In this document: one piece after another, positions 3,828 through 63,669 of the stretch
Layout of the letters: each line of letters starts with the position of its first letter
Position numbering within the stretch: the stretch's first letter is position 1
DNA from: Glycomyces sp. YM15
GTDB lineage: Bacteria; Actinomycetota; Actinomycetes; Mycobacteriales; Micromonosporaceae
Length of the DNA stretch: 64,000 nucleotides
NCBI RefSeq assembly: GCF_016918015.1
Contig: NZ_JAERMK010000012.1
Span: 62,001 to 126,000, forward strand
Direction of reading: 5' to 3'
Translations under genes and position numbers: made by a program
Notes under the pieces: model-generated
The model's input: the letters and a program-made list of their open reading frames with translations, nothing else
Told to the model about the DNA's origin: nothing
The model's database searches: none

Positions 3828-3943
3828 CTAGCGTCATGGGACTTGCCCCGGGTCACAACCCCGGAACCCGCCGCCCCCGTCGCCGCCCAATGCCACCAGC
3901 CGGTGGAATGTCATATGTCGCGCGGCATATGGCACCGAACGGA

Positions 3944-4018
3944 CGGCCCTGCAAAGGAGGGCCCTGCAAAGGACGGCGCTGCAAAGGGCCGCGCTGTAGA
4001 AGACCGCGCTGAGCGGGA
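3944..4018 (+). repeat. Five tandem 15-bp repeats
   Basis: Units start at 3944, 3959, 3974, 3989 and 4004. The first is CGGCCCTGCAAAGGA, and divergence increases toward the last. The array lies in the leader of the GH15 gene, ending 74 bases before its chosen start. A 15-bp unit would add five residues if translated, but no gene needs this region. Confidence 0.85.
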
Positions 4019-4092
4019 TGGCGCCGAAAGCCATCGGGACACAAGAAGCGCGCCATACAATGCCGCCAGCGCCAATGGCGAGGAGCCGCATC

Positions 4093-6030
4093 ATGCACCA
4101 CCAGGACGACGCCGAGACGGGCGCGCACGCCCGCTACCGCCCGATCGAGGACTACGCCCTCCTCTCCGACCGCCGCTGCGCCGCCCTCGTCTCCTCCGAG
4201 GGATCCATCGACTGGTTCTGCCGCCCCCGCTTCGACAGCCCGGCCGTCTACGGCCGCCTCCTGGACCCCGACGCCGGCCACTGGTCGATCCGCCCGTCCG
4301 GCCCCTTCACCAGCGAACGCTCCTATGTCGGCGACACCTTGGTCCTTCGCACCGTCTTCACCACCGACACCGGCACCGCCCACCTCATCGACACCTTCGC
4401 CATCGGCCCCTCGACCGAGGCCGAGACCGGCGTGCGGCTCAGGCTCGCCTCCCGCGCCCCCAGGGCCACGATCCGCGTCCTCGAATGCACCGCAGGGCGC
4501 ATCGAGATCGACTTCGAATTCAAGCCCCGACCCGAATTCGGCCTCGTCAAACCCATCTTCACCACCATCCCCGGAGGTGTCCTGGCGACGGGCGGGCCCG
4601 TCCGCTTCGTCCTCACCTGCCCCATCGACCTCGAATTCAGCGACGCCGCCGCCACCGTCCGCATCACCCTCGACGAAGGCGAGAAGCTCCGCTTCGTGAC
4701 CCAGTCCGCCGGACTCGCCGACGAACCACCCGCGACCTGGACACCCGAAGCCATCGACGTCGCACTCGAAGAGACCATCCAGGGCTGGCAGCGCTGGAGC
4801 GACGCCCATCCCACCTGGGACGGACCCCTGCCCCACCTCGTGCGGCGCTCCATCCTCGTCCTCGAAGCCCTCCGCTACCAACCCACCGGCGCCATCGTCG
4901 CCGCCCCCACCACCTCCCTGCCCGAAGCCGTCGGCGCGGGCCGCAACTGGGACTACCGCTTCTCGTGGATCCGCGACGCCAGCTTCACCGTGCAGGCGCT
5001 GGCCGCCGCCGGATCCACCGAGGAAGCGATCCAGTTCTTCGAGTTCATCACCCGTGCCGCCGCCCACTACCACCCCGAGAACCCGCTCCAGATCATGTTC
5101 GGCGTCGGCGGCGAACACGACCTGTCCGAAAGAGAACTCACCCATCTGTCGGGTTGGCGCGGTTCGCGTCCCGTGCGCGTGGGCAACGCCGCCTGGCAGC
5201 AGCCGCAGCTCGACGTCTACGGCGAATTCCTCGACGCGGCCTGGCAGCTGCGCCCCCACCTGACCCACCTCGACGCGGCATCGCGCCGCTTCCTCACCGG
5301 CGTCGCCGACGCGGCCGCGGACCATTGGGGACGGCCCGACCACGGCATCTGGGAGTCGCGCGGCGCCCCCCGCCACTACACCTACTCCAAACTCATGTGC
5401 TGGGTCGCGCTCGACCGCGCCGTCAAACACGCCGAACTCATCGAGGTTGAACAACGCGAGGCCATGACGTTCGGCCGAGACGTCCTCAGTGGCCAGGAAC
5501 TCACCCCTGAGGACTTCAACCCGGTGAAGCTGGCCCCGGGCTGGGCGGCCGCGCGCGACCGCATCCGCGAGGCCATCGAGGAGTACGCCTGGAAACCGGC
5601 CATCGGCGCCTTCGGCGCGGCGTTCGACGGCGACGACCTCGACGCGGCCGTCCTCCTGCTGCCCGCCGTCGGGTTCCTGCCCGGCGACGACCCTCGCGTC
5701 GTCTCCACGGTCGATGTCATCGCGGAGCGGCTTCGCGCCCGGCAGGGCCTGGTGCGCCGCTACGAATCGGGGACCGACGGGCTCGAAGGCGACGAGGGCG
5801 CGTTCATCATCTGCACGTTCTGGCTCGCGCAGGCACTGGCCCTGACCGGACGGGTCGAGCGGGCCCGAGACGTGCTCGAGGAGGCCGCGGCCTGCGCGAA
5901 CGACCTCGGTCTCATGTCGGAGGAGATCGACGCCGACTCCGGTGCGATGCTCGGCAACTACCCGCAGGCGTTCAGCCACATCGGCCTCATCAACGCCGCG
6001 GCGGCGATCCGCGACGCCGAACGCCGCTGA
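4093..6030 (+). CDS. GH15 glucoamylase/trehalase-family hydrolase
   Basis: This 645-residue cytosolic protein has full GH15 features. The N-terminal domain begins YRPIEDYALLSDRRCAALVS and contains GSIDWFCRPRFDSP. The (alpha/alpha)6 catalytic domain carries RNWDYRFSWIRDASF near residue 285 and GTDGLEGDEGAFIICTFW near the C-terminus. Close actinobacterial relatives include mycobacterial GH15 trehalase as well as glucoamylases, so the substrate is trehalose or short alpha-glucans. I chose ATG 4093 because GGAG sits 7 bases upstream; an in-frame ATG at 4018 would extend into the tandem repeat. Confidence 0.92.
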   Translation: MHHQDDAETGAHARYRPIEDYALLSDRRCAALVSSEGSIDWFCRPRFDSPAVYGRLLDPDAGHWSIRPSGPFTSERSYVGDTLVLRTVFTTDTGTAHLIDTFAIGPSTEAETGVRLRLASRAPRATIRVLECTAGRIEIDFEFKPRPEFGLVKPIFTTIPGGVLATGGPVRFVLTCPIDLEFSDAAATVRITLDEGEKLRFVTQSAGLADEPPATWTPEAIDVALEETIQGWQRWSDAHPTWDGPLPHLVRRSILVLEALRYQPTGAIVAAPTTSLPEAVGAGRNWDYRFSWIRDASFTVQALAAAGSTEEAIQFFEFITRAAAHYHPENPLQIMFGVGGEHDLSERELTHLSGWRGSRPVRVGNAAWQQPQLDVYGEFLDAAWQLRPHLTHLDAASRRFLTGVADAAADHWGRPDHGIWESRGAPRHYTYSKLMCWVALDRAVKHAELIEVEQREAMTFGRDVLSGQELTPEDFNPVKLAPGWAAARDRIREAIEEYAWKPAIGAFGAAFDGDDLDAAVLLLPAVGFLPGDDPRVVSTVDVIAERLRARQGLVRRYESGTDGLEGDEGAFIICTFWLAQALALTGRVERARDVLEEAAACANDLGLMSEEIDADSGAMLGNYPQAFSHIGLINAAAAIRDAERR

Positions 6031-6166
6031 CCGGCCGCGCCCGTCGGGAAACCGTCGCACCGGATCACGAAAAGCCCTCAAACGGGTCGTGCGGCGACGC
6101 TACGGTGACGTGGAGCCGCGCCTACGCGCCGGCTCGCAACGGGGAAAGACTGAGGAGGGCGGCGAC

Positions 6167-6460
6167 ATGGCCGCACACATGGAACACGCCGGGCACGCGC
6201 ACGAACACGGCAGGGACTGCGGCCACACCGCGGTGCTGCACGGCGACCACACCGATTACGCCCACGACGGTCACCTGCACCGGGTGCACGGCGACCACGT
6301 CGACGAATGCGAGCCGCAGGGCCATCATGTCCACGAAGGGCACGCCCACGAGCACGGTGAGGACTGCGGGCATGTCGCGGTCGCCCACGGCGACCACAGC
6401 GACTACGTGCACGACGGGCACCGCCACGCGGCCCATGCCGGCCACTGGGACGACCACTGA
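6167..6460 (+). CDS. Histidine-rich metal-binding protein with internal duplication
   Basis: This is a 97-residue protein with roughly a quarter histidine. It consists of two copies of a unit of about 45-49 residues built on HEHGxDCGHxAVxHGDHxDY followed by HDGHxH. Similar actinobacterial proteins are often misnamed zinc transporter permeases, but there is no membrane segment or signal peptide here. A role in zinc or nickel buffering is plausible, and the Zur-like site 2.3 kb upstream fits that. GAGGAGGG precedes the ATG. The only cysteines are in the two DCGH motifs and one DECEP. Confidence 0.85.
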   Translation: MAAHMEHAGHAHEHGRDCGHTAVLHGDHTDYAHDGHLHRVHGDHVDECEPQGHHVHEGHAHEHGEDCGHVAVAHGDHSDYVHDGHRHAAHAGHWDDH

Positions 6461-6474
6461 CCCGGACGCAGGAG

Positions 6475-6509: not shown

Positions 6510-6522
6510 GCGTCGTCCGGTG

Positions 6523-7215
6523 TCAGGTGGGCTGGGCCCAGGAGCCGCGAACGTGGCTGAGGTGCAGCTCCATCACCTGGCGCACGTACTCGGGGTCGCG
6601 GGTGAGGAGGCCGTGCAGGATCTCCAGGTGCTCCCCGGCCGACTCCTCCAGTTCGCCCAGTTCCATGAGGGCGGTCAGGCCGTACAGGCGTGAGCGCTGG
6701 CGCAGGTTGCGGACGGTCTCGACGAGCGTGGCGTTGCCGGAGAGCGCGAGCATCTCGAGGTGGAAGCGCATGTCGGCCTCGACATAGGCGATGAGGTCCT
6801 CTTCGGCGGCGGCGTCGACGATGGCCTGGGCGAGGGGGCGCAGCGCTTCGATGTCGGCCGGGTCCGCGGTCGTCGCGAGTGCCACGGTCGTCGGGATCTC
6901 GATGAGCTCACGCAGTTTCGTGTACTCGTCGAGCTGCGATTCGGAGACGACCTTGACCCGGAACCCCTTGTTGGGCACGGGTTCGACGAGCGCTTCCTTG
7001 ACGAGGTCGAGCATCGCCTCGCGCACGGGAGTGGCGGAGACCCCGAACTGCTCGGCCAGGACGGGCACCGAGTAGACCTTGCCCGGGGCGAGCTCCCCGG
7101 TGATGACGGCGGCCCGGAGGGCCTCGCCGATGCGCTCCCGGTAGCTGGCGCGGCGCCCGCCCATCTCGGGCAGGGACATCGCGACGGCCTGCGCGGCTCC
7201 GGCTCGAGCTGGCAT
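6523..7215 (-). CDS. GntR-family regulator, FCD (FadR) subfamily
   Basis: This 230-residue regulator has an N-terminal winged helix (ERIGEALRAAVITGELAPG, then VLAEQFGVSATPVREAML, about residues 25-75) and a C-terminal all-helical FCD ligand domain with EADMRFHLEML. It is the last gene of an operon with a DapA-family lyase and a proline racemase-like enzyme, so it probably senses hydroxyproline, proline or a derivative. GAGGAGG lies 5 bases before the ATG. Two TGTCACA-centred palindromes (7232-7242, 9277-9287) are candidate operators. Confidence 0.92.
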   Translation of the reverse strand: MPARAGAAQAVAMSLPEMGGRRASYRERIGEALRAAVITGELAPGKVYSVPVLAEQFGVSATPVREAMLDLVKEALVEPVPNKGFRVKVVSESQLDEYTKLRELIEIPTTVALATTADPADIEALRPLAQAIVDAAAEEDLIAYVEADMRFHLEMLALSGNATLVETVRNLRQRSRLYGLTALMELGELEESAGEHLEILHGLLTRDPEYVRQVMELHLSHVRGSWAQPT

Positions 7216-7231
7216 CAGGACCTCCTCAGTG

Positions 7232-7242
7232 GTGTGTCACAC
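7232..7242. promoter_or_regulatory. Candidate GntR operator (GTGTGTCACAC)
   Basis: A perfect 11-bp palindrome sits in the 54-base gap before the gntR-type gene. It shares the TGTCACA centre with the site upstream of the operon. It also resembles the dispersed motif described below, so assignment to GntR is tentative. Confidence 0.35.
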
Positions 7243-7269
7243 GTGGCGCGTCACAGTATGCGGGAAGGC

Positions 7270-8271
7270 TCAGAGGATGAACCCGCTGGGGAAGGGGTCG
7301 TCGGGGTCGAGCGTGTACTGGGCGGTACCGGTTATCCAGGCGCGGCCGGTGACGGACGGGATGACAGCCGGGAGGCCGTCGACCTCGGTCTCGCCGACGA
7401 GGCGGCCGGTGAACCGCGAGCCGATGAACGACTCGTTGACGAAGTCCTCCTCGAGCCCGAGGAGGCCGCGGGCGTGCAGCTGGGCCATGCGAGCGGAGGT
7501 GCCCGTGCCGCAAGGGGAGCGGTCGAACCAGCCGGGGTGGATCGCCATGGCGTGCCTGGAGTGCTTCGCGTCCGATCCGGGCGCGGTCAGGTAGACGTGG
7601 TGGAGGCCCCGGATGGACGGCTCGAGCGGGTGCACCGGCTCCGCCGCGGCGTTCACCGCCGCCATGATGTCGAGCCCGGCGGCGATGAGTTCGTTCCCGG
7701 CGGCCCGGTCGAACGGCAGGCCGAGGTCGTCGAGGTCGACGAACGCGTAGAAGTTCCCGCCGAAGGCCAAGTCGTAGCGGATCTCCCGGCCGTCTTCGAG
7801 GGTCGCGGTGCGGTCGAGCCCGACCGAGAACGCCGGGACGTTCACCAGCGTGACGGCCTTGGCCGCGCCGTCCTCGACCCGCACCTCGACTTGCACCAGG
7901 CCGGCCGGGGTGTCGAGGCGGACCGTGGTCCACGGCTCCGTCACCGGCACCATCCCCGTCTCGACGAGCACCGTGGCCACGCCGATCGTGCCGTGCCCGC
8001 ACATCGGGAGGTAGCCCGAGACCTCGATGAACAGCACGCCCCAGTCCGCGTCCGGGCGGGTCGGCGGCTGGAGGATCGCCCCGCTCATGGCGGCATGGCC
8101 GCGCGGCTCGTTCATCAGGAACCCGCGCACATGGTCCGAGTGGTCGCGGAAGTGCTCCCGCCGCTCCATCATCGTCGACCCGGGGATGGCGCCGACACCA
8201 CCGGTCACGACCCGGGTGGGCATGCCCTCGGTGTGCGATTCGACGGTCTGGAGCACGAGTCTGCCGCGCAT
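7270..8271 (-). CDS. Proline racemase-family enzyme, probable 4-hydroxyproline 2-epimerase
   Basis: The protein has 333 residues and both catalytic cysteines of the racemase/epimerase branch: Cys91 in MCGHGTIG and Cys254 in SPCGTGTSA. Dehydratase relatives have Thr at one of these sites. Cofactor-free epimerisation of trans-4-hydroxy-L-proline to the cis-D isomer is the best fit, because the upstream partner resembles the pathway's deaminase. The ATG follows a ribosome-binding site AGGAGG that overlaps the upstream gene's stop. A D-hydroxyproline oxidase and a ketoglutarate semialdehyde dehydrogenase are not in this window. Confidence 0.88.
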   Translation of the reverse strand: MRGRLVLQTVESHTEGMPTRVVTGGVGAIPGSTMMERREHFRDHSDHVRGFLMNEPRGHAAMSGAILQPPTRPDADWGVLFIEVSGYLPMCGHGTIGVATVLVETGMVPVTEPWTTVRLDTPAGLVQVEVRVEDGAAKAVTLVNVPAFSVGLDRTATLEDGREIRYDLAFGGNFYAFVDLDDLGLPFDRAAGNELIAAGLDIMAAVNAAAEPVHPLEPSIRGLHHVYLTAPGSDAKHSRHAMAIHPGWFDRSPCGTGTSARMAQLHARGLLGLEEDFVNESFIGSRFTGRLVGETEVDGLPAVIPSVTGRAWITGTAQYTLDPDDPFPSGFIL

Positions 8272-8282
8272 CGGTGGTCCTC

Positions 8283-9179
8283 CTAGGCGAGCCCGGCCGC
8301 GAGGGCCTGCTCGGTGGCGGTGCGGACCTCGGCGGCCTGCTCGGGCAGGAGCGGCACGCGGGGGAGGCGGCACCGGCCGCCCTTGCGGCCGACGATGTCC
8401 ATCGAGAGCTTGATGGCCTGCACGAACTCCACTTTCGAGTCCCAGCGCAGCAGCGGGTGAAGCTGCCGGTACAGCGGCAGGGCCGTTTCGAGGTCGCCCG
8501 CGACGGCCGCCCGGTACAGCTCCACCGTGGACTTCGGCAGTGCGTTGGGGTAGCCCGAGATCCAGCCGACGGCGCCCGCGACGGCGAGTTCGAGCAGCAC
8601 GTCGTCGGCTCCCACCAGCAGGTCGAGGCCGGGGGCGAGCTCGGCGATGCGGTAGGCGCGCCGCACGTCGCCGGAGAACTCCTTGACGGCGTGGATGAGT
8701 CCTTCGGCGTGGAGCTTCGCCAGCAGTTCTGGAGTGAGGTCGACCTTGGTGTCGATCGGGTTGTTGTAGGCGACGACCGGCAGGCCGGCCTTCGCGACCT
8801 CCTCGTAGTGGGCGATCACCGAGCGCTCGTCGGCCCGGTAGGCGTTGGGCGGCAGCAGCATGACGGCGCCGCACCCGGCGTCGCGCGCCTGCTCGGCCCA
8901 GCGGCGGGCCTCGACGGCGCCATAGGCGGCGACGCCGGGCATGACGCGCTCGCCGCCGATCGCCGCGACGGCCGTGGCGACGACCTCGGATCGCTCGGTC
9001 TCGGTGAGGGTCTGGTACTCACCGAGGGAGCCGTTCGGGGTGACGCCGTCGCAGCCGTTCGCCACCAGCCAGGCGCAGTGCTCGCCGAAGGCCGGGAAAT
9101 CGACCGTGCGGTCCTCGTTGAACGGCAGGGCGGTGGCGACGAGGACGCCGCGCCAGGGGCGCGATTCGGGTGCCGACAT
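8283..9179 (-). CDS. DapA-family lyase (probable pyrroline-hydroxycarboxylate deaminase)
   Basis: This 298-residue TIM barrel carries the Schiff-base lysine Lys166 in AVKEFSGD, Tyr138 in VAYNNP and the substrate motif TPNGSLGEY. In hydroxyproline clusters a DapA homologue deaminates 1-pyrroline-4-hydroxy-2-carboxylate to ketoglutarate semialdehyde. Plain dihydrodipicolinate synthase is less likely in this context. I chose ATG 9179 for its GGAAG; an ATG at 9209 is also in frame. It is the first gene of the operon, 11 bases before the epimerase. Confidence 0.85.
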   Translation of the reverse strand: MSAPESRPWRGVLVATALPFNEDRTVDFPAFGEHCAWLVANGCDGVTPNGSLGEYQTLTETERSEVVATAVAAIGGERVMPGVAAYGAVEARRWAEQARDAGCGAVMLLPPNAYRADERSVIAHYEEVAKAGLPVVAYNNPIDTKVDLTPELLAKLHAEGLIHAVKEFSGDVRRAYRIAELAPGLDLLVGADDVLLELAVAGAVGWISGYPNALPKSTVELYRAAVAGDLETALPLYRQLHPLLRWDSKVEFVQAIKLSMDIVGRKGGRCRLPRVPLLPEQAAEVRTATEQALAAGLA

Positions 9180-9276
9180 GGGGCTTCCAATCTCGATGAC
9201 GTGTGACATGGTACTGCGGGAGCCGCCTGGGGCGACCTGGAAGCAGCAGCGGCAGCGGCCGTTCACCGAACAGTAA

Positions 9277-9287
9277 TATGTCACATA
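9277..9287 (-). promoter_or_regulatory. Candidate promoter/GntR operator of the hydroxyproline operon
   Basis: TATGTCACATA is a perfect 11-bp palindrome in a short A+T-rich patch. It overlaps a possible minus-strand -10 (TATAGT) about 100 bases upstream of the DapA-family start. FadR-type regulators bind TGTnnACA-like dyads, so autoregulation by the operon's GntR protein is likely but inferred. Confidence 0.45.
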
Positions 9288-9289
9288 CT

Positions 9290-10035
9290 ATAGGAGAGGG
9301 AGGGGCCCGCGCACTCCGGGAGTGACACACCGCGGACCAGTGCGCGAAGCTCGGCGCCGCGGCCCTGATCGAGCGCCGCGTCGACGGCGAGTTCGAAGCC
9401 GCGCAACGCGTTGAAACCTGGTACCGGGAGCGCGGTGCGGGCATCCGGCTGAGCGCGACGCGCCGCCCGTTCAGGGCCGCGCCGCAGCGGAGGCTGCCGT
9501 TCCTGGACCACTTCCGCGGTGATCGCCGGGGCGATGCGGGTGACCGCCTTGCCGAAGACCTTGCGGTCCCCAGGTTCGGCGAGGTCCCAGTCGTCCAGGC
9601 GCATGTCGAGCCGGTGGCGCAAGGCCGCGATGAACCGCTTGAATGCCGCCTGCCCTGGGCGGTCGGCGTGAGTCGTCCCTTTTCGACGGACAGGAGCCCG
9701 GCTCGCACCGCCTGGGTGGACGCCGGAGTGAGCACCTCCGGCGGGACCGGGTGGACGGCGACGATCTTGCGCACCGTCGCTTCCGCTCCGGCCCGCTGCG
9801 GCACATAGACCTGGCGCAGCGCGCACGCGTCCGACCGGTCGAGCAGACCGTCGGTCGCCCGGGACACCTCGGTGCAGACCGTCGCGCGTTCGCGCTGCAT
9901 GACGTCGGCGATCATCCGCGCACCCCGTTCCTCCGACGGCGCCGGGTCCGGGGCCCCGAAACCCTCGCCCATGTCGACTTCGCGTCCGCGCGTCGCATCG
10001 CGCAGCGGTCGCTCCGCCGGGAACCGGGCCACCAC
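9290..10035 (-). pseudogene. Frameshifted remnant of an unidentified gene
   Basis: Coding-like sequence starts in one minus-strand frame (about 10035-9650, with RDATRGREVDMGEGFG and later VEKGRLTPTAQG). It continues in another frame (about 9650-9290, with AAFKRFIAALRHRLDMRL and AVTRIAPAITAEVV). The join falls near a run of G and C at about 9650. The middle looks like a winged helix, but I cannot name the family. There is no clean start, since the open frame runs back over the promoter of the neighbouring lipoprotein gene. A real but unfamiliar gene plus a sequencing error is the alternative. Confidence 0.35.
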
Positions 10036-10090
10036 GAACCCGAGCGCGACGCCCGGTATGTCGCGGCCGGGAGCGGGGCCCTCTCGCGCC

Positions 10091-10096: not shown

Positions 10097-10103
10097 GGCG
10101 CTT

Positions 10104-28286: not shown

Positions 28287-28297
28287 ACACCGGAACG

Positions 28298-28331
28298 GCG
28301 AGTGCCACGTGACGTGTGACGTGGCACTCGC
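28298..28331 (+). terminator. Hairpin terminator of the fructose operon carrying the dispersed motif
   Basis: Perfect 13-bp arms GCGAGTGCCACGT and ACGTGGCACTCGC enclose an 8-base loop GACGTGTG. There is no U-tract. The 3' arm and loop make one copy of the dispersed GTGAC motif. Confidence 0.75.
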
Positions 28332-28506
28332 ACAGCGCTGCGAAGCCACCCTTCCGGGCAGCGTGTGACAGGTGAGGTGCCACCGGTCGTGTAGGGCGGA
28401 TGCCGTCCTGGAAGCCGCATGCGGCGTGTGATGCACCGCGGATGCAAGGGCACCCGCCGCACAGCCGCGAACCATCCCGGTTCGACCCATACCGGACCCT
28501 TCATCT

Positions 28507-33801: not shown

Positions 33802-33837
33802 CGAAGCCCCCGGTTGCTCGTTCAGCCGGGGGCTTCG
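33802..33837 (+). terminator. Hairpin terminator
   Basis: Perfect 12-bp arms CGAAGCCCCCGG and CCGGGGGCTTCG enclose a 12-base loop, 32 bases past the DUF4234 stop. A dispersed-motif copy (33841-33866) follows at once. Confidence 0.8.
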
Positions 33838-33901
33838 TGCTGCGTGACGCGTGATATGCCACTGCGCGGCCCAGGCGGCACCCGGGCGGCCGGGGACCGG
33901 C

Positions 33902-34471: not shown

Positions 34472-34543
34472 GTCGTACCCACCTGCCAGGGTGGTCCCGG
34501 GGGCCCGCGACTCGGGTGATACGTGACATGTCACATGGCATGG
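34472..34543 (+). repeat. 72-bp dispersed repeat, copy A
   Basis: This block is about 82% identical by hand alignment to 48846-48917. It begins GTCGTACCC, continues with CAGGGTG, and ends in the palindrome GTGACATGTCAC followed by ATGGCAT. It lies between convergent apt and KDPG aldolase genes. Confidence 0.7.
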
Positions 34544-34581
34544 CCACTGGCGACGGGCCCCGATCAGAGCGACATCGACCG

Positions 34582-34614
34582 ATGGCGCGTGACCGGTGAT
34601 AGGTCACGCGCCAT
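34582..34614 (-). terminator. Hairpin terminator of the KDPG aldolase gene
   Basis: Perfect 13-bp arms ATGGCGCGTGACC and GGTCACGCGCCAT enclose the loop GGTGATA, 16 bases beyond the aldolase stop. It also carries a GTGAC-type motif. Confidence 0.8.
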
Positions 34615-34630
34615 TTCGCGGGAAGGCCGC

Positions 34631-42904: not shown

Positions 42905-43041
42905 GCACCGCACAGGTGACATGCCGCGGTGGAGCGGTGCGAACGACACCGATATCGGCTGCGGCGCATGACGTATCACCGCCGCTCGCCGAGGACGCCG
43001 AACCGATCGCCGCCGGTGGCACATGACATGCCACCGGCGGC
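42905..43041. terminator. Cluster of three hairpins between convergent genes
   Basis: Hairpin a is GCACCGC/GCGGTGC (42905-42940). Hairpin b is GCGGCG/CGCCGC with loop CATGACGTATCAC (42961-42985). Hairpin c has perfect 13-bp arms GCCGCCGGTGGCA and its complement with loop CATGACA (43009-43041). Each loop carries a GTGAC/ATGACA-type dispersed motif. Hairpin c probably terminates the response-regulator transcript. Confidence 0.7.
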
Positions 43042-43065
43042 CGACGACTGCGAGACGGCCGGGGT

Positions 43066-46710: not shown

Positions 46711-46936
46711 CGGCGCGCCGAGCGGCGCATCATCCGTTTCAGGAGCGAACTTCGGGGACGTGAGTGGTACCCAAGTACTACGACTTCTGGCCGGGCGGGC
46801 ACGGCGCCGACGGGAATCAGCGGAAAAACGCGTGACATGTCATATATTACTCGTGGCGGACCCCCGGAAATACCCTGACACACGGGTACGACGGTGATGG
46901 CCGGCGAACATGCGGCCCGGCCGTTCGGCCGGTTCG

Positions 46937-48845: not shown

Positions 48846-48917
48846 GTCGTACCCCCATGTCAGGGTGCTACCGGGGCTCGCTGATCGGGTGGTACGTGAT
48901 ATGTCACATAGCATCGC
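48846..48917 (+). repeat. 72-bp dispersed repeat, copy B
   Basis: This block matches 34472-34543 at about four in five positions. It runs from GTCGTACCC to GTGATATGTCAC and ATAGCAT. The left part has spacing reminiscent of PafBC-type promoters (TGTCG, 12 bases, then CAGGGT) but lacks the TA of the -10. It lies between divergent genes. Confidence 0.7.
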
Positions 48918-48986
48918 AGATCAGGACCGGGCCGGCCAGAGAGGACAGTAGACATACTTTCGCGTCCTTCCGGGTAACCGGAGCGC

Positions 48987-51283: not shown

Positions 51284-52275
51284 GAATCGCTCCTGATGCG
51301 GCGGAGGAACAGGTAGTTGAGGAGGGCGATGATGACGATGACGAGGAACATCGTCCACGCGACCGCCGAGGCGTAGCCGAATGCGAAGCCGCGGTTGAAG
51401 CCGTGCTCGTACAGGTAGAGCGTGAGCGTCTGGAACTGGCGGGAGGCGCCGCCGGTGACGCCGTTGGGCCCGCCGCCGCCGAAGAGCTGCGGCTCGGCGA
51501 AGATCTGCAGCCCGTAGATGGTCGAGACGATCACCGTGAACACGATGGTGGGCCGGATCATCGGGACGGTGACGTGGAACAGCTGCTGCATCCGCGACGC
51601 CCCGTCGAGATGGGCGGCCTCGTAGACCTCGCGCGGGACGGCCTGCATCGCGGCGAGGAAGATCAGGGCGTTGTAGCCGGTCCACTTCCACGCCACCATC
51701 ACCGCGATGGCGATATGTGACGTGGCACTGCCGGACTGCCAGTCGATGCGCCCGGCCCCGAGCGATTCGAGCACCCAGTTGACGAGCCCGAAGTCGCGAC
51801 CGAACAACTGGCTGAAGATGACGGCGACCGCCACCACGGAGGCGACGTTCGGCAGCAGCATCCCCATGCGCCAGAACGTCTGCCCGCGCAGCCGCAACGT
51901 CAGCAGGTGCGCCAGGAGCAGGGCTGCGAGCAGCTGCGGCACCGTCGCGAGCAGCAGGATGGACAGCGTGTTGCCCAGGGCGTTCCAGAAGTACGGGTCG
52001 CTCAGGAGCGTCCGGTAGTTGCCGAGTCCGAGGAACACGTGCTCGTCGGACAGGAGGCTCCAGTCGTGTGTGGACACCCAGGCGGTGTACGCGAGCGGGA
52101 AGAGCCCGAACGTGGCGAACAGCGCGAAGAACGGGGCGATGTACAGGTACGGCGAGGCCTTGAGATCGAGGCGGTACCGCAGCTGCTGGAAGCGCCGGCC
52201 TTCGGGGCGCCCGGGGCTGCGGGTGGGGGAGGACCGTCCGGTGGGGCCGGCGGTGCTCTTGGCGGCGATGGTCAT
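51280..52275 (-). CDS. Sugar ABC transporter permease (MalF-type)
   Basis: This 331-residue permease has the EAA loop YEAAHLDGASRMQQLFHVTV and six or seven helices. It is preceded by a (GGAAGC)8 microsatellite in the 128-base gap after the binding protein. Codons for SATSHIAI (about residue 186) coincide with a dispersed-motif copy at 51711-51733. No ATPase is encoded nearby. Confidence 0.92.
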   Translation of the reverse strand: MTIAAKSTAGPTGRSSPTRSPGRPEGRRFQQLRYRLDLKASPYLYIAPFFALFATFGLFPLAYTAWVSTHDWSLLSDEHVFLGLGNYRTLLSDPYFWNALGNTLSILLLATVPQLLAALLLAHLLTLRLRGQTFWRMGMLLPNVASVVAVAVIFSQLFGRDFGLVNWVLESLGAGRIDWQSGSATSHIAIAVMVAWKWTGYNALIFLAAMQAVPREVYEAAHLDGASRMQQLFHVTVPMIRPTIVFTVIVSTIYGLQIFAEPQLFGGGGPNGVTGGASRQFQTLTLYLYEHGFNRGFAFGYASAVAWTMFLVIVIIALLNYLFLRRIRSDS

Positions 52276-53669: not shown

Positions 53670-53966
53670 CGGTGGTTCTCCACTGTGTTCTCTGGGTGGT
53701 GAGGGATCCGCTGCCCCGGGCGGGGAGCGGGCGGCGGCTCAGGTGCCGCCGTGGCGATAGGGCCGGTCTTCACGTGAAGGTGAGAGAGCGCTCTCTCGTT
53801 CGGACGGACGGCCCGAAGCCGAGCGGTGCGCTTCGGGGCTCTGGAACGTCGTGCCGACCGGCGTCGGCTTCGGTGCGTCACGCGTGACAGGTGCCATGCC
53901 ACCGCCTTGGGGGAGCGGCATATCGGCGCGGCCGCGTGGAAGGAAGGCGCGGCCGCGCCGCTCGGG
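53670..53966. other. Spacer between glucanase and importer genes
   Basis: It contains the LacI operator (53782-53797), a CTTCACGTGAAG palindrome (53768-53779) and a dispersed-motif copy with GTCACGCGTGAC (53877-53905). I see no gene. Confidence 0.7.
53782..53797 (-). promoter_or_regulatory. LacI operator upstream of the beta-glucan importer
   Basis: GAGAGAGCGCTCTCTC is a perfect 16-bp palindrome, identical to the core at 55465-55480. Its central CG and symmetric arms are typical of LacI-family sites. Confidence 0.8.
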
Positions 53967-56940: not shown

Positions 56941-59706
56941 TCAGCGCAGGTGCCGCTTGGTCTTCGCGGTCGGCGCCACCGAGTACGGGTCCTCCGGCCA
57001 CGGGTGCTTGGGGTAGCGGCCGCGCATCTCCTTGCGCACGTCCCGGTAGGGCCCTTCCCAGAACGACCTGAGGTCGGCGGTGACCGCGAGCGGACGCCCG
57101 GCGGGGCTGAGCAGGTGCAGGACCACCGGCACGCCCGCGACGCGCGGCGTGTCGACGGCGCCGAACATCTCCTGGAGCTTGACGGCCAGCACCGGGGCCT
57201 CCCCGGAGTAGTCGACGCGCGCCTCGCGTCCGGTGGGGACGGTGAGCGACTCGGGTGCGGTCTCGTCGATGCCGGCCCGCCACGGCAGCAGGTTCCGCAG
57301 CGCCTGACCGACCGGGATGCGCTCCACATCGGCTCGACGTCCCGCCCGCGACCACCACGGCTCCAGCCAGTCCGTGCCGGCCGTGAGCGCCGCGTCGGAG
57401 ACGTCGGCCCACGGTTCGCCGAGCGCGCGACGGCAGAACGCCATCCGCTCGCGCAGCCGCTTCGACTCCTCCGACCAGCGGAGCAGGCCGAGGCCTTCGC
57501 GGCGCAGCCCTTCGGCGAGCGCCGCCGCCACGAGCGCAGGATCGGCCCGGCGCAGCGGCTCCGCGGACACCTCGATCGCCCCGAGCGAGCGCACGCGGCG
57601 TGCGGCCACGTCCCGGCGCTCGCCGTCCCACTCGACGCGTTCGCTCACGCTGTCGCCCACCAGCTCGCACGCGAGCTCCCCGTCGATCGGGACGGCGGCG
57701 CGGATGAGGGCGGCGGCGCGGCCGGGGGAGCGGTCGGCGTCGGCGATGGCGAGCCACGGGCTCCCGACGAGCGAGGAGCCCTCCGCGGCGACCGCGCCGG
57801 TGCCGGCGACGGTCCGCCACTGCCCGGCGCTCGTCGGCGCGCCCATCCGGTTCGCGTCGGCTCCTCGGCCGCGGATCGGTGTGAGCGCTACGCCCCCTTG
57901 GTGTTTGGCGACGCGCTCAGGGAAGGCCAGGGCGATGACGGTGGCGGCGGCCTCGTCGTCGCCGACCGCGGAGCGACGCTCTCCCGATCGCGAAGCGGCG
58001 CGATGCGCGCGGGCGGTCGGACCATCTGACGCCGCGGTGTCGGTGCCGCCGGCTTTCGCCGCGGCGTCCGGTTCTCCGTTCGTCGTACTGCTCGCTGTGT
58101 TCCGCTCCTCGCGCGCGCTCGACAGCGCGCGCTTCAGGCGTTTGACCTCGGACTCCCACTGGCGGTCCCGGCTCGCCCGCAGCTGCCGCCATTGCGCGAG
58201 GAGGTCGTCGCCTCTGGCGCGCCGGTCGAGGTTGAGGAGCGCGGCGACCTCGGCGGCCTTCGCCGCTCCGATGCGGTCGGCGCCGTCCACCAGAGCGCGC
58301 GCCAGCCGCGGCGGGACGCCCATCCGGGCCAGGTGCCGGCCCCGTGGGGTCGCGATGCCGTCGGTGTCGATGGCGCCCAAGGCGCGCAGCGTCGCCTCGG
58401 CCGCTTCGAGGGCGCCCGTGGGCGGGGGACCGGGCATCGCCAGCTCCTCGACCGGGGTGCCCCAGCAGGCGGCCTGGAGGCGGAACGCGGTGAGGTCGGA
58501 GCAGGCGATGTCCGGGGCGGGCTGGGCGGCGCGGCGGGTGTGCTCGGCTTCGCTCCAGCACCGCCAGACCGCGCCGGGCCCTTCGCGCCCCGCGCGGCCC
58601 GCGCGCTGGTCGGCTGCGGCGCGGGAGGCGTATGCCGTGGTCAGGCCCGGCAGGCCGCGCGCGTGGTCGACGAGGGGCCTGCGAGCGAGTCCGGCGTCGA
58701 CGACGATGCGCACGCCGGGCACGGTGAGGCTGGATTCGGCGATGTCGGTGGCCAGGATGATCCGGCGGCGCTCGCCGATGCGCTCTGCGGATTCACGGCT
58801 CGCAAGTGTCGCCGAGAGGGCGCGGTCCTGGTCGGCCGACGAAACCGAGCCATGCAATTGATATATATCGACACCGAGGTTTTCACTTGTCAAGTGCGCC
58901 AACCGCTCGGCGACGCGACGGATCTCGGCGGCGCCGGGGAGGAAGACCAGGAGATCGCCGTCGTCGGTGTCGACGGCCCGTTCGACGGTGTGGGCGACAT
59001 GGGCGAGGAATCTCGGGTCGACGCGCATCCCGTCAGGGGCGCTGACGCGCTCCCTCGGCGGTGCCCAGTGCATCTCGACCGGATAGCGCATCGGTTCGGA
59101 GCTCACCGAGGGAGCGGGGGCGTGCTCGGTGCCGATGAGCGCGGTCCAGAGACCGACGTCGGCGGTGGCGGAGGCGGCGACCAGGCCGAGCTCGGGGCGG
59201 AGGATCTGGCGGGTCTCGGTGAGGAACGCGACCGCGGTGTCCGTCTCGAGGTGTCGCTCGTGGCATTCGTCGAGCATGACGAGGTCGACGCCGGGGAGTT
59301 CGGGGTCGGCGATGAGCCGGTTGAGGAGGACCCCGGTCGTCACGACCTCGACGCGGGTCGCGGCGGACCGGCGGGCCTCGCCCCGGATCTGGTAGCCGAC
59401 CCGCCCGCCGACCTGCTCGCCGAGGATCGCGGCCATGCGCGTGGCGGCAGCCCGGGTGGCGAGGCGCCGCGGCTCGGCCACCAGGACGCGGCGCTGTGGC
59501 ATATCACGTGTCACACGTGACGCGGCGGTTCCGTCGGGAGCGTTCGCTCCCTGGATGAGGCCCGCGAGGGCCAGCGGCGCGAGCGTGGTCTTGCCGGTGC
59601 CGGGCGGCGCGACGAGCACCGCGGTCCCGGTGCGCGCTACGGCCTCCAGGAGCGCGGGGAGGGCTTCGCGGATCGGCAGTTCGGGCAGCGCGGGCGGTTG
59701 CGGCAT
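56941..59706 (-). CDS. hrpB: ATP-dependent helicase HrpB
   Basis: This 921-residue DEAH-type helicase has Walker A VAPPGTGKTT, Walker B LDECHERH, SATADVGLW, TDIAESSLTVPGVRIVVDAG and the QRAGRAGR motif, then the HrpB C-terminal domain. Most relatives are about 820-850 residues. Two extra stretches explain the length: about 15-20 residues near position 60 with SRVTRDMPQ, and an Ala/Thr/Ser-rich insert near 555-610. The first coincides with a dispersed-motif copy (59495-59524). The ATG at 59715 is an alternative start. The role of HrpB is unsettled. Confidence 0.9.
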   Translation of the reverse strand: MPQPPALPELPIREALPALLEAVARTGTAVLVAPPGTGKTTLAPLALAGLIQGANAPDGTAASRVTRDMPQRRVLVAEPRRLATRAAATRMAAILGEQVGGRVGYQIRGEARRSAATRVEVVTTGVLLNRLIADPELPGVDLVMLDECHERHLETDTAVAFLTETRQILRPELGLVAASATADVGLWTALIGTEHAPAPSVSSEPMRYPVEMHWAPPRERVSAPDGMRVDPRFLAHVAHTVERAVDTDDGDLLVFLPGAAEIRRVAERLAHLTSENLGVDIYQLHGSVSSADQDRALSATLASRESAERIGERRRIILATDIAESSLTVPGVRIVVDAGLARRPLVDHARGLPGLTTAYASRAAADQRAGRAGREGPGAVWRCWSEAEHTRRAAQPAPDIACSDLTAFRLQAACWGTPVEELAMPGPPPTGALEAAEATLRALGAIDTDGIATPRGRHLARMGVPPRLARALVDGADRIGAAKAAEVAALLNLDRRARGDDLLAQWRQLRASRDRQWESEVKRLKRALSSAREERNTASSTTNGEPDAAAKAGGTDTAASDGPTARAHRAASRSGERRSAVGDDEAAATVIALAFPERVAKHQGGVALTPIRGRGADANRMGAPTSAGQWRTVAGTGAVAAEGSSLVGSPWLAIADADRSPGRAAALIRAAVPIDGELACELVGDSVSERVEWDGERRDVAARRVRSLGAIEVSAEPLRRADPALVAAALAEGLRREGLGLLRWSEESKRLRERMAFCRRALGEPWADVSDAALTAGTDWLEPWWSRAGRRADVERIPVGQALRNLLPWRAGIDETAPESLTVPTGREARVDYSGEAPVLAVKLQEMFGAVDTPRVAGVPVVLHLLSPAGRPLAVTADLRSFWEGPYRDVRKEMRGRYPKHPWPEDPYSVAPTAKTKRHLR

Positions 59707-60226: not shown

Positions 60227-61813
60227 TCACTCGCTGAGGTCGCCCTCCGGGCAGGAATCGTCGTTGGCGACGTACTCGAGCGTGATCGGCGTGTCGTAGC
60301 CGATCTCGGCACCGCTCTCGGGGCTCTGGTAGAGGACCTCGCAGGTGTCGTGCTCGGTGCTCTCGGGCTCCGTCGTCATCGAGTGGGCCGCCGTGAACCC
60401 CTGGCTTTCGAGATCTTCGAGGGCGTCGGTGACGTTCCATCCGGTGTAGTCGTCGATCTCGACGAGCTGGGACTCCTCCTCGGCGTTGTCGTCCTCGGAG
60501 TGGTCCTCTTCATTGCCGCCGTTGTCGTCCGAGTTGTCCTCTTCGGAGTCGCCGCCCGACTCGTCGCGGGTCTCCTCGGCGGCCTCGGTGGCCTCCTCGG
60601 TCGCCTGGGCCTGCTGGGTGGCGCCGGTGTCCTCGCCCCCGGCCAAGTCGTTCTCGTCGGACTTGTCCCACGGCTTCAAGAGGAACAAAGCGACGATGAT
60701 CACCGCGATGCCCGCCACGACCACCAGGATCGGTCCCGTGGGATTCCGCTTGGGCTGCTCGGCCTCGCGCGGGGGCGGCAGCGGGCGTTCAGGGGCGCCG
60801 CCGGTCCTGTACTGGCCGGTGCCGGGCGAGCCGTACTCATCGTGCTGCACCGGTTGCACCGACGTGTGGGCGGGCGCGACGCCTGCGGCCATCGCCGGCG
60901 CCATGCCCGGGGTCATCACCTGGGTGGACTGCGGCGACTGGCCGGACTGGTACGGGCTCGGCGCGGGCGCGAGGATCGTCGTGGTGCCGCCGCCCATGCC
61001 GCCGGCCTTGCACACCTGCGCGAGCTCGGCCGCCGAGGCGAAGCGCTGGCGCGGGTCCTTCGCCAGACAGCGCATGACGGTCTGCGCGACCGGGCCCGGG
61101 ACGTCCGGAGGGAGCGGGCCGGGCCGGCCGGTGAGGTGGCCGGCGATCGCGGCGGTCGGCTCGTTGCCCGCGAACGGGGGGCGTCCGGCGAGGCATTCGT
61201 AGGCGACGATGCCCAGCGAGTAGAGGTCGGTCGCGCCGGTCAACTGCGCGCCCTGGAGTTGCTCGGGGGAGGCGTAGGCGAGGGTGCCCATGACGGTGCC
61301 GGTCTCGGTCAGCCCCGCGCCGCCCTTGGCGGCGGCGATGCCGAAGTCGACGATCTTGACGCTGCCGTCCGAGTCGACCAGCAGGTTTCCCGGCTTGATG
61401 TCGCGGTGGATGATGTGGGCCTGGTGGGCGACGTCGAGAGCCTCGGCCGCCGACGCCATGATCTTCAGCGTCTCGTTGGGGGACAGGCGGCCCCGCTGAC
61501 GCAGGACGTTGTCGAGCGCCTGACCGCGCACGAGCTCCATGATGAGGTAGGAGACGAGCCCTTCGGGGGCCTGCTCCTCGCCGTAGTCGTAGAGGCTGAC
61601 GATCCCGGGGGACTGCAGCTGGGCGACGGCCTGCGCCTCCTGGTGGAAGCGGGCGCGGAACCGGTCGTTGCCGGACAGTCCTGAATGGAGGAGTTTGACG
61701 GCGACGGTGCGGTTGAGCCGGGTGTCGGTCCCGCGCCACACCGCGCCCATGCCGCCCGCGGCCAGACGCTGTTCTAGGCGGTATCGGCCAGCGATCAGGT
61801 TCCCGGGTTCCAC
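60227..61813 (-). CDS. Transmembrane serine/threonine protein kinase with PASTA-like domain
   Basis: This 528-residue kinase has an N-terminal catalytic domain (about 10-275) with a GGMGAVWRG loop, AVKLL, HRDIKPGNLL, DFGIA and SPEQ. A Pro/Gln-rich linker and one membrane helix (PTGPILVVVAGIAVIIVALF, about 362-381) follow. A very acidic extracellular spacer rich in Glu, Asp and Thr precedes one PASTA-like domain (VEIDDYTGWNVTDALEDLES, then TPITLEYV). It resembles PknB-type kinases that bind peptidoglycan fragments, but with a single PASTA unit. Confidence 0.92.
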   Translation of the reverse strand: MEPGNLIAGRYRLEQRLAAGGMGAVWRGTDTRLNRTVAVKLLHSGLSGNDRFRARFHQEAQAVAQLQSPGIVSLYDYGEEQAPEGLVSYLIMELVRGQALDNVLRQRGRLSPNETLKIMASAAEALDVAHQAHIIHRDIKPGNLLVDSDGSVKIVDFGIAAAKGGAGLTETGTVMGTLAYASPEQLQGAQLTGATDLYSLGIVAYECLAGRPPFAGNEPTAAIAGHLTGRPGPLPPDVPGPVAQTVMRCLAKDPRQRFASAAELAQVCKAGGMGGGTTTILAPAPSPYQSGQSPQSTQVMTPGMAPAMAAGVAPAHTSVQPVQHDEYGSPGTGQYRTGGAPERPLPPPREAEQPKRNPTGPILVVVAGIAVIIVALFLLKPWDKSDENDLAGGEDTGATQQAQATEEATEAAEETRDESGGDSEEDNSDDNGGNEEDHSEDDNAEEESQLVEIDDYTGWNVTDALEDLESQGFTAAHSMTTEPESTEHDTCEVLYQSPESGAEIGYDTPITLEYVANDDSCPEGDLSE

Positions 61814-61926
61814 CCTCGGCCTCGCTTCTGATTCGGGGAGCAGGGGACGTGGGAGAGCTTAGTCGGGAGGCGCGAGCCCGCCCGAGGGCGTCCGGTCGCT
61901 GCCCGTGCCGATCGGCAGGGGTCCAA

Positions 61927-61953
61927 CGTGTGACAGGTGATATGGCACTGCGC
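61927..61953 (+). repeat. Dispersed GTGAC motif, reference copy
   Basis: GTGACAGGTGATATG followed by GCACTGCG is one of the clearest copies of the recurrent motif. It lies in the spacer between the kinase and msrB genes, outside any hairpin. Confidence 0.7.
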
Positions 61954-62050
61954 CGAGCGGCCGCGGAGTCGGTCAGCCGCGAATGATCCAGTACGCGTCG
62001 CGGTCGTCGAAGGCGGTCGGTTCGATGCCGATCGCGATCGGCCGAAGCGC

Positions 62051-62461
62051 CTACGTCGCGTCGTCGGCCGGTTCCAGGGTCAGGCTGATCGAGTTGATGC
62101 AGAAGCGGGCGTCGTCGGGGTTGTCCCAGCCTTCGCCGTAGAAGACGTGGCCCAGGTGCGAATCGCAGTTGGCGCAGCGCACCTCGGTGCGGCGCATGCC
62201 GAGGCTGTCGTCCTCGAGGAGCCGCACCCGGTCCCCGGCCATCGGCGTCCAGAACGAGGGCCAGCCGCACCGGGAGTCGAACTTGGTGTCCGACGCGAAC
62301 AGCTCGGCCCCGCACGCGCGGCACCGGTAGACGCCCCGGCGCTTCTCGTCCACGTACTCGCCCGTCCACGGCGCCTCGGTGCCGCCTTGGCGCAGCACCT
62401 TGTACTCGTCGCGGCTGAGCTGCTCGCGCCACTGCGCGTCGGTCTTGCGGTCCTCGGCCAT
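62051..62461 (-). CDS. msrB: Peptide-methionine (R)-S-oxide reductase
   Basis: This 136-residue MsrB has the zinc-binding pairs Cys47/Cys50 and Cys96/Cys99, the catalytic Cys121 in RFCINS, and FDSRCGWPSFW with the resolving-type Cys65. It reduces methionine-R-sulfoxide with thioredoxin. The stop TAG is followed by 25 in-frame codons with coding-like composition before the next stop. Confidence 0.95.
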   Translation of the reverse strand: MAEDRKTDAQWREQLSRDEYKVLRQGGTEAPWTGEYVDEKRRGVYRCRACGAELFASDTKFDSRCGWPSFWTPMAGDRVRLLEDDSLGMRRTEVRCANCDSHLGHVFYGEGWDNPDDARFCINSISLTLEPADDAT

Positions 62462-62627
62462 GACTCAAGTGTAGGAGCCGGAGCGCGAACCGTCTCGCCC
62501 TGACCGGGTGCGCCGACCTCCTCGGGGCCCGGGGCCGGGAACCCGAGCCGCCCACGGCGGCGGGCGCCTAGCACCACCGCCGCGGCCCGGAGGAGCCCGA
62601 GCCCGCGCCGCCCCTCCGGCGGGCCGC

Positions 62628-62633
62628 TAGGAT
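62628..62633 (+). promoter_or_regulatory. -10 box (TAGGAT), leaderless lactonase gene
   Basis: TAGGAT, 7 bases, then ATG 62641. It is identical in form to the promoter at 20260. Confidence 0.55.
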
Positions 62634-62640
62634 CGGGCCC

Positions 62641-63669
62641 ATGCGGTACCTCCTTGGCGACTACACCACTGAAGGCGGCCCGGGCCTCGTCGTGGCCGGA
62701 CCCGACGGACTCGGCGCGGCCGCGGCGGTGGTCAACCCGTCGTGGGTCCACGTCGGCCCCGAAGCGGTCTACACCCTCACCGAGACCGAGCCCGGCTTCG
62801 CCGCGGCCTGGCGGCTCGGCGAGGACTTCACACTCGACCGGGCGGGCCAGGGCCAGTCCACCGGCGGCAACAACCCCTGCCACGCCACTGTGGATCCGAG
62901 TGGGCGCTGGCTGCTGGTCGCGAACTACGGTGGCGGCGACGGGAACGGCGCCTCGGTCGCGGTCCTGCCGATCGGGGAGGGCGGGACGCTCGGGGAGGCC
63001 GCGGACGTCTTCAAGCTCTCCGGGTCGGGCCCCGACGCGGAACGCCAGGCCGGGCCGCATGCGCACCAGGTGGTATGTCACATGGGACGGGTGCTGGCCG
63101 TGGATCTGGGCTCTGACCGCATCCACGCGTTCGACCTCGGCGAGGACGGCAAGCTCATCCCCGCCGCGACCACGCAGCTCGACCCCGGCTTCGGCCCGCG
63201 CCACCTCGCGTTCCTCGGGGATCGCGCGGTCGTCGTGGGGGAGTTGGCGAACGCGGTCGCTGTCGGGTCCTTCGACGAGCGCGCGGGCACCTTCTCATTC
63301 CGCACCCCGGTGCCCCTGCCCGGCGGCGGGGTCGCCGACTTCGCGGCCCTGCCCGACATCGGGATCGAAGAGGACGCGCCGCAGCCGCTCCCGGCGGCGG
63401 TGGTCGCCGACGCCGAGCGCGGCCTGGTGTACGTCACGGTGCGCGGCACCGACCAGGTCGCGGTGATCGACCCGGCCGACGGGGCGCTCGTACGCACGGT
63501 GCCGACCGGTGCCGCCTGGCCGCGCGACGCCGTGCTCACCGCCGACGGGACGCTGCTGGTGGCCTGCCAGCACTCGGGCGTCGTCAACCGTGTCGACCCG
63601 TCGGGCGCGGCCGAGCCCGTCACCGAGTGGACCGTCCCGGGCGTCACCTGCGTGGCCCCGCTCACATAA
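62641..63669 (+). CDS. Beta-propeller lactonase-family protein (6-phosphogluconolactonase-like)
   Basis: This 342-residue seven-bladed propeller of the YkgB/Pgl type has NPCHATVDPSGRWLLVANYG, AGPHAHQVV, and DPGFGPRHLAFLGD. These carry the conserved His and Arg of the lactonase family. It may hydrolyse 6-phosphogluconolactone or a related lactone. VVCHMG within the AGPHAHQ segment coincides with a dispersed-motif core (63069-63087). Confidence 0.88.
   Translation: MRYLLGDYTTEGGPGLVVAGPDGLGAAAAVVNPSWVHVGPEAVYTLTETEPGFAAAWRLGEDFTLDRAGQGQSTGGNNPCHATVDPSGRWLLVANYGGGDGNGASVAVLPIGEGGTLGEAADVFKLSGSGPDAERQAGPHAHQVVCHMGRVLAVDLGSDRIHAFDLGEDGKLIPAATTQLDPGFGPRHLAFLGDRAVVVGELANAVAVGSFDERAGTFSFRTPVPLPGGGVADFAALPDIGIEEDAPQPLPAAVVADAERGLVYVTVRGTDQVAVIDPADGALVRTVPTGAAWPRDAVLTADGTLLVACQHSGVVNRVDPSGAAEPVTEWTVPGVTCVAPLT

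Follow-up and report, generated by a model that had tools for sequence, protein, structure and literature searches.

Heptad arrays in Glycomyces suggest a metabolic regulator turned local chromosome organiser

Why would a short palindromic DNA element be repeated across one part of a bacterial chromosome, and which protein would read it? This question is raised by a 64,000-nucleotide stretch of Glycomyces sp. YM15 (hereafter the window; RefSeq assembly GCF_016918015.1, contig NZ_JAERMK010000012.1, forward-strand positions 62,001 to 126,000), in which an initial annotation had listed a recurring motif at 18 coordinates. From sequence comparisons, we lean, with confidence just above even, toward the view that these elements are operators of a HypR-like regulator encoded in the window, multiplied over ~130 kb, with HypR marking a chromosome domain. 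Genomes are coded as follows: YM15 is G000, with C4 the contig carrying the window; G014 is G. luteolus, G002 G. niveus, G006 G. lechevalierae, G007 G. terrestris, G016 G. algeriensis, G005 G. albidus, G013 G. sambucus, and G021 G. salinus. The Glycomyces genomes compared are drafts.

A heptad array concentrated in one region

The repeat element is a tandem array of 7-bp units, each consisting of GTSAC and an AT-type 2-bp linker, with mostly three to six units per array. The consensus of the 7-bp-period array, taken from a matrix built from array-rich regions, is GTGACATGTGACATGTCACATGTCACATG. A single motif of about 23 bp had been described initially; what is found instead is this array of variable unit number. 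Arrays are non-directional and near-palindromic, and a strand label carries little meaning. The recurrence itself is real: 17 of the 18 listed coordinates fall in arrays that score at least 12 with the new matrix. Coordinate 42913 scores below 12, and one array, 9266-9298, had been missed. Grouping matrix matches at a score of at least 12 yields 18 arrays in the window (Table 1). Enrichment over shuffled sequence also holds, since the consensus first proposed has 10 matches in the window at up to 3 mismatches versus 0.01 expected in shuffles.

Matrix matches scoring at least 14 number 71 in 164 kb of G000, versus an expectation of 1.3 from three first-order Markov copies per region. The corresponding counts are 91 in G014, 125 in G002, 123 in G006, and 102 in G013, versus 0-0.3 in Markov copies. 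G009 and G012 have none, G017 has two, and the outgroup G024 has none (Markov copies, 0.3, 0, 0, and 1.0). Because the array-rich regions themselves served to train the matrix, scores there are optimistic; pattern-match counts are independent of it. With up to 2 mismatches allowed, GTGAYNNGTSAYATGSCAY is found 37 times in the whole YM15 assembly, at 27 places when matches are grouped by hand, and the reversed pattern is not found at all. Fifteen of the 27 places lie within C4:35,640-125,088, or 1.6% of the assembly (binomial 1e-20, for an interval picked after the places had been seen), a concentration that a restriction or methylation target would not by itself explain. The span initially given, 3911-63087, does not bound the element: within the stretch covered, arrays extend over C4:35,626-125,098 (window -26,374 to 63,098), with satellites on other contigs.

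Exact GTGACRYGTGATATGCCAC occurs in 23 stretches of the GTDB collection, 22 of them from Glycomyces and one from Cerasicoccus. When up to 1 mismatch is allowed, 17 of 41 genomes have some match and nine have at least nine, namely G000, G002, G005, G006, G007, G013, G014, G016, and G019, which are the array-rich genomes among the 25 of the family. The other eight matching genomes, G021 among them, have one or two matches each, and four of these eight are outside the family. Counts of GTSNCRTGTSACRTGSNAC at up to 1 mismatch are 14 in G000, 30 in G002, and 42 in G013, with 0 in G017 and 1 each in G010 and G018.

Long stretches of six array-rich genomes hold 156 arrays scoring at least 14 (21 in G000, 23 in G014, 29 in G002, 30 in G006, 32 in G013, and 21 in G007). 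Relative to the hypR-like gene described below, these sit between -86 and +69 kb, the exception being one at +108 kb in G006, and the syntenic region of concentration spans about -65 to +70 kb. Per 10 kb, array density is 0.3-0.6 between -100 and -60 kb, 1.1-1.6 between -60 and +20 kb, 3.2-3.5 between +20 and +60 kb, 1.2 between +60 and +80 kb, 0 between +80 and +100 kb, and 0.25 beyond, in a profile whose ends are not reached by all six stretches. G007 has a further array group at C10:417 kb. No arrays are present in 80 kb each of G009, G012, G004, and G011, and there is one in 80 kb of G017 and one in 100 kb of G010. The gene order g84-g119 is kept in array-less species too, the left side being less well kept, and the array region is therefore not an island. 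At an RsmC-like gene lies a satellite whose arrays occur in G000, G014, G016, G007, and G013, and so in both of the array clades defined below. That satellites mark regulator genes was considered and set aside, as their flanks hold an RsmC-like methyltransferase and mostly metabolic genes, with one satellite (C1:250 kb) adjoining another GntR-type gene.

A HypR-like regulator as the candidate binder

The gene at 6523-7215 on the minus strand (g58) encodes a protein with a GntR winged helix-turn-helix (wHTH) domain and an FCD domain. Its predicted structure, from a 26-sequence alignment, has a predicted local distance difference test (pLDDT) score of 85, with residues 1-11 below 50. The model matches structures of McbR, PmiR, TM0439, VanR-type proteins, and NanR. 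Twenty-four residues precede the first predicted helix, and the recognition helix is 86-100% identical in the homologues compared. Proline racemase and dihydrodipicolinate synthase (DHDPS)-family genes lie beside g58, as in hydroxyproline gene sets. We call the regulator HypR-like on the basis of its domains, its neighbour genes, a published binding box, and putative operators in other genera.

In Streptomyces coelicolor, HypR (SCO6294) is a repressor with the box CTNTGC(A/C)ATGTCAC, established by footprinting at its own promoter and by electrophoretic mobility shift assay (EMSA) at others. The protein bound TACAATGTCAC at its own promoter in the footprint and TGCAATGTCAC, TGCCATGTCAC, and TGCAATGTGAC in EMSA; TACAAGGTCAC and TGCAATGTCAG were not bound (PMC6608401). 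The core TGC(A/C)ATGTCAC is matched by array units, for example GTGCC-AT-GTCAC. The initial suggestion of a nucleoid-protein or regulator site is therefore supported, in that arrays match a box established by experiment for a GntR/FCD regulator, a relative of which the window encodes. The accompanying statement that this core is absent from all known actinobacterial elements was mistaken, as the binding of S. coelicolor HypR to TGCCATGTCAC indicates (PMC6608401).

Similar sites accompany hypR homologues elsewhere. A match to g58 at E 1e-38 is present in 43 of 197 genomes of the class, its own included. Among 29 foreign loci with 1.5-kb flanks, 18 have an adjoining proline racemase (at least 65%), and in 11 the gene is preceded by ATGTSAC at a distance of no more than 130 bp. 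For the six nearest homologues in other genera (66-68%), a proline racemase adjoins all six, and an ATGTSAC box precedes five. The three-heptad sequence GTGCCATGTCACGTGCCAC occurs once each in G057 and G150, 63 and 102 bp before the hypR homologue. Across 15 foreign genomes, GTSNCRTGTSACRTGSNAC at up to 1 mismatch is absent from eight and found one to four times in seven (reversed control, 0-3). Given the box and these other-genus sites, the arrays are most likely HypR-type operators. At E 1e-35, 15 of the 22 Glycomyces genomes have a HypR paralogue, and one AATATGTSACATATT-like palindrome lies at 9 of 16 paralogue loci (L177-L181, L183, L185, L187, and L188), starting 61-90 bp past the 3' end of the coding sequence matched. 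These palindromes point to one core common to the subfamily. Near-palindromic arrays also occur in G013 as four copies at 57-bp spacing (C12:186173-186362), ~2 kb from a HypR paralogue gene, and as five copies at 69-78-bp spacing (C6:80497-80809).

The distribution of the gene follows that of the arrays. Among the 25 genomes, a hypR orthologue (78-99%) is present in all nine array-rich genomes and in G017 and absent from the other 15. Eight of these 15 have only paralogues at 41-52%, seven have no match at E 1e-35, and each has 0-2 pattern matches. In each of the nine array-rich genomes, an array immediately precedes the hypR-like start. A TetR-type gene left of the window (C4:41,046-41,651), used as a control across the 25 genomes, is present in the nine array-rich genomes and also in six array-poor ones (G004, G008, G009, G010, G011, and G018); it was rejected as the binder, since this distribution is not array-like. 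The control raises the case for the hypR product as binder. The G009 and G012 regions lack matrix matches even at a score of 8, where Markov copies give 6.7 and 3.3, a hint that genomes lacking HypR may avoid array-like sites.

Table 1. Arrays and regulator-linked genes of the window (window positions; a dot stands for the strand of an array)
Feature	Position	Strand	Remarks
Array	3896..3938	.	Divergent spacer; matrix 24.8
hypR-like gene g58, GntR wHTH + FCD regulator	6523..7215	-	Pfam GntR 1.6e-14, FCD 1.4e-21; presumed array binder
Array	7222..7261	.	Directly before hypR-like start codon; matrix 22.9
Proline racemase / hydroxyproline epimerase family gene	7270..8280	-	PF05544 E=1.9e-126; beside g58, same strand
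DHDPS-family gene	8283..9284	-	PF00701 E=6e-47; same strand as g58; start possibly further in
Array	9189..9221	.	5' end of DHDPS-family gene; matrix 22.5
Array	9266..9298	.	5' side of three-gene row; matrix 26.1; sole one kept in G017 80 kb (alignment)
Array	28295..28334	.	Spacer, phosphoenolpyruvate (PEP)-utilising enzyme / ROK genes; matrix 29.5
Array	28358..28390	.	Spacer, PEP-utilising enzyme / ROK genes; matrix 16.7
Array	33830..33869	.	Just after terminator-like inverted repeat; matrix 25.5; array here in 6/6 array-rich genomes aligned
Array	34506..34548	.	Spacer; matrix 35.4
Array	34575..34621	.	Spacer or gene start; matrix 23.3
Array	42954..42986	.	Convergent spacer; matrix 15.8
Array	43009..43044	.	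Convergent spacer; matrix 23.3
Array	46818..46860	.	Between PolA-like and ABC-ATPase genes; matrix 30.6
Array	48882..48921	.	Upstream of PolA-like gene; matrix 31.8; copy remains in hypR-less G018 (alignment)
Array	51703..51735	.	Inside ABC permease gene; matrix 16.0; array-less species: same codons, no motif
Array	53870..53909	.	Tandem spacer; matrix 19.1
Array	59489..59531	.	Inside HrpB helicase gene; matrix 31.4; common to clades A and B
Array	61920..61955	.	Tandem spacer; matrix 23.9
Array	63056..63098	.	Inside lactonase-family gene; matrix 26.4; common to clades A and B

No Rfam family was found in the window. Left of it, at C4:17236-26691, lies a 3151-aa open reading frame with no good match in the relatives' stretches.

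Placement and history of the arrays

If the arrays served promoters, their positions should reveal it. Of the 156 arrays, 39 are in called coding sequence versus 100 expected at random. Classed spacers hold 79 (49 tandem, 21 convergent, and 9 divergent), and a further 28 lie in long gaps and 10 at edges. For these 79, expectations computed by hand from spacer length are 16.6 convergent, 13.6 divergent, and 48.8 tandem, with gene start codons uncertain and shared arrays counted per species. The split follows spacer length, with no preference for promoter-bearing spacers. A promoter regulon should favour divergent and avoid convergent spacers; such a bias is not observed, which, together with retention of arrays away from the catabolic genes in clade B, favours a structural use. 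The initial count of three copies inside genes fits the arrays at 51703, 59489, and 63056; over the wider region, 9 of 21 arrays fall in automatic gene calls, several of which have uncertain starts.

A tree built on 26 linked proteins in 13 genomes contains the groups (G018,(G000,(G014,(G002,G006)))), (G010,(G013,G007)), and (G011,(G017,G004)), with Shimodaira-Hasegawa-like approximate likelihood ratio test (SH-aLRT) values of 90-100 on the named forks, obtained by a quick method with no bootstrap. G018 and G010, both without hypR, are therein the sisters of the two array clades, A and B, respectively. A single-gene tree (23 rows) again places G010 beside clade B but separates G018 from clade A. 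Judged by the tree only, two array gains suffice (2 changes). Both clades carry, at matching places, the three in-gene arrays (permease, HrpB, and lactonase) as well as one that follows a terminator-like repeat; these arrays are therefore probably older than the clade split, or have moved between clades. At the seven aligned array sites, G018 has matrix scores of 29 upstream of the PolA-like gene, 18 in the lactonase gene, and 13 in the permease gene, with nothing at the other four. G010, G017, G004, G011, G009, and G012 score at most 11 wherever aligned at the sites shown.

The in-gene arrays bear on what has been selected. At the permease site, G000 encodes SGSATSHIAI and G013 encodes AGSATSHIAI, with AGT, TCA, and CAT codons; G010, G017, and G004 encode AGTASSHVAI with GC-rich codons. 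This pattern is as expected if DNA, not protein, were selected. The HrpB array, unlike those in the permease and lactonase genes, sits in an extra stretch. A proline racemase gene is present in 6 of 10 orthologue flanks and absent from the four clade B flanks. In clade B, neither an epimerase nor a DHDPS gene was found in the flanks (G005, G007, G013, and G019; 4 of 4) or the regions (2 of 2), the rest of these genomes not having been searched.

Competing explanations and known systems

The mechanism we infer would begin with g58 protein binding the arrays as its operators, the palindromic GTSAC units at every 7 bp seating several dimers side by side, as NanR does on hexamers. Ancestrally, one operator would have controlled the hydroxyproline-type genes and hypR itself. 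In an ancestor of the two Glycomyces groups, this operator would have been multiplied to tens of places over ~130 kb around hypR, plus a few satellites. HypR would now act as a domain marker, with dispersed clusters bridging or folding the region rather than switching single promoters. Looping by FCD tetramers and tandem filling in other systems suggest that HypR on arrays could bridge them. A stronger form is more tentative and, in our estimate, somewhat short of even: a metabolic repressor became a domain protein that folds or insulates ~130 kb, in a role that outlived the adjoining catabolic genes, is specific to the genus, and is unrelated to MatP, ParB, or classic nucleoid proteins.

Several observations weigh against the arrays being HypR operators that mark a domain. 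Three of the seven aligned array sites are not shared with clade B, the density maximum lies 20-60 kb to one side of hypR, and arrays common by descent were counted once per species. The hypR-less G018 still has 6 arrays scoring at least 14 in 80 kb, which we read as decay. G017 has hypR and only one array in 80 kb, before the three-gene row; the gene therefore does not need the domain. The orthologue is missing from G021, which yet has a strong array pair (scores 28 and 33; L045:1432-1529), ~11 kb from a 46% paralogue, which lowers the case for the hypR product as binder. Genome-wide profiling covered two proteins, hypR and the TetR-type control, and 16 other region gene calls occur in at least 3 of 5 array-rich regions but were not seen in the array-less stretches, some of which stop short of them. 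The Fisher value for co-occurrence, 4.9e-6, overstates the association because the genomes are related. In addition, the GT-S-AC gap is 1 nt, in place of the 2-3 nt usual under the FadR-subfamily rule (PMC4494728). G017, G021, and this GT-N1-AC spacing are the worst-fitting points.

Alternatively, HypR might control the transcription of many neighbouring genes through the arrays with no structural role. In favour of such a local regulon, arrays are enriched in non-coding DNA, with 117 of 156 outside called genes versus 56 expected at random (edges and long gaps included), several precede transporter and sugar genes, and S. coelicolor HypR is a repressor (PMC6608401). We consider it unlikely, as promoter-bearing spacers are not preferred, arrays lie in convergent spacers and inside the HrpB, permease, and lactonase genes, and clade B keeps them with no epimerase and DHDPS genes nearby. 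The missing promoter preference, and many strong sites for one regulator, would also fit a titration sponge that buffers free HypR for a sharp response of target genes. This is improbable, because a sponge needs neither clustering in one region nor conserved in-gene positions, and near clade B hypR there are no catabolic genes to buffer, the rest of those genomes not having been searched.

Binding by another protein, with hypR as a linked passenger, would accommodate G021 and the 16 further region gene calls that remain beyond the two profiled proteins. The array units also recall the 7-bp repeats, or heptads, bound by the omega protein of pSM19035. We judge this marginally less probable still than a sponge, given the published HypR box and the operators that accompany both the paralogues and the other-genus homologues. 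Least probable, and very much so, is a mobile repeat resembling a miniature inverted-repeat transposable element (MITE), as initially considered, or a repetitive extragenic palindrome (REP). Copies are dispersed and near-palindromic, some at ~57-bp spacing (G013:C12), but they share no flanks and vary in unit number. Within the permease and lactonase genes, what distinguishes them from array-less relatives is substitution at the same codons and not an inserted element; neither clean empty sites nor the shared ends of a conserved element were found.

HypR as a marker of a chromosome domain can be compared with known systems. S. coelicolor HypR is alike in being a GntR/FCD protein with hydroxyproline-type genes and autoregulation, and its TGC(A/C)ATGTCAC corresponds to two array units; it differs in having seven sites shown in vitro, in potential promoter regions (PMC6608401). 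Glycomyces arrays number in the tens, are multi-unit, are concentrated in one region, and occur also in convergent spacers and inside genes. FCD-GntR dimers of E. coli NanR fill (GGTATA)3 cooperatively and need an N-terminal extension for this (PMC8012715). Both the tandem-repeat site and the extension, compared with the 24 residues in g58, are shared features, while NanR sites are 6-bp direct repeats (PMC8012715) and cooperativity of g58 would be by analogy. Atu1419, of VanR type, acts on ATGTATACAT as a tetramer looping DNA between two sites; its half-sites are likewise ATGT/ACAT, while its centre is 2 bp versus 1 in the arrays, and it has three identical palindromes in two promoter regions (PMC7797058).

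The arrays also recall two chromosome-organising systems. The matS sites read by MatP in enterobacteria are tens of GTGAC-based palindromes in one part of the chromosome, the terminus; each is a single 13-bp site, and MatP is a ribbon-helix-helix protein. Arrays are alike in their GTGAC-based cores and their confinement, and differ in their heptad arrangement and wHTH candidate. A matS-like terminus domain, first suggested by the GTGAC cores, gained no clear support: two region genes (HrpB and PolA-like), in outgroups where found, lie 2.2-2.3 Mb from dnaA and ~1.25 Mb from dif, and no convincing dif was found in Glycomyces. Using an actinobacterial consensus at up to 3 mismatches, dif-like sites are seen in the closed outgroups G022 and G024 and in none of 18 Glycomyces genomes, except for one poor 3-mismatch match in G002. 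The Glycomyces dif may have diverged, or the chromosome may be linear. Third-codon GC skew has no clear switch inside the array region. The parS sites of ParB are dispersed palindromes near the binder's gene, and the array sequence differs from their TGTTTCACGTGAAACA core near oriC. Canonical parS was rejected as the array's identity because it forms a separate set, with seven sites in each of 15 of 16 Glycomyces genomes and two in G006; those listed, which do not include G000's own, are mostly on the dnaA contig. Among the literature matches listed, there was no report of the arrays, of HypR in Glycomyces, or of a like regulator-site domain, an absence that is weakly tested. What appears new here is the use of HypR sites, as tens of arrays, some in genes, kept in a clade with no adjoining epimerase and DHDPS genes.

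The origin of sequence-specific chromosome organisers is an open question to which this array series speaks. The multiplication of HypR-type sites suggests a metabolic regulator turned local chromosome organiser. Comparable stages are available: a promoter-type operator (other genera and G017), tens of sites (nine genomes), weakening (G018), and near absence (G010 and others). Much of the surrounding gene order is kept within the genus, which makes the route from regulator to domain marker testable. If this reading is true, Glycomyces would offer a natural series of presence, decay, and loss for studying how chromosome domains arise.

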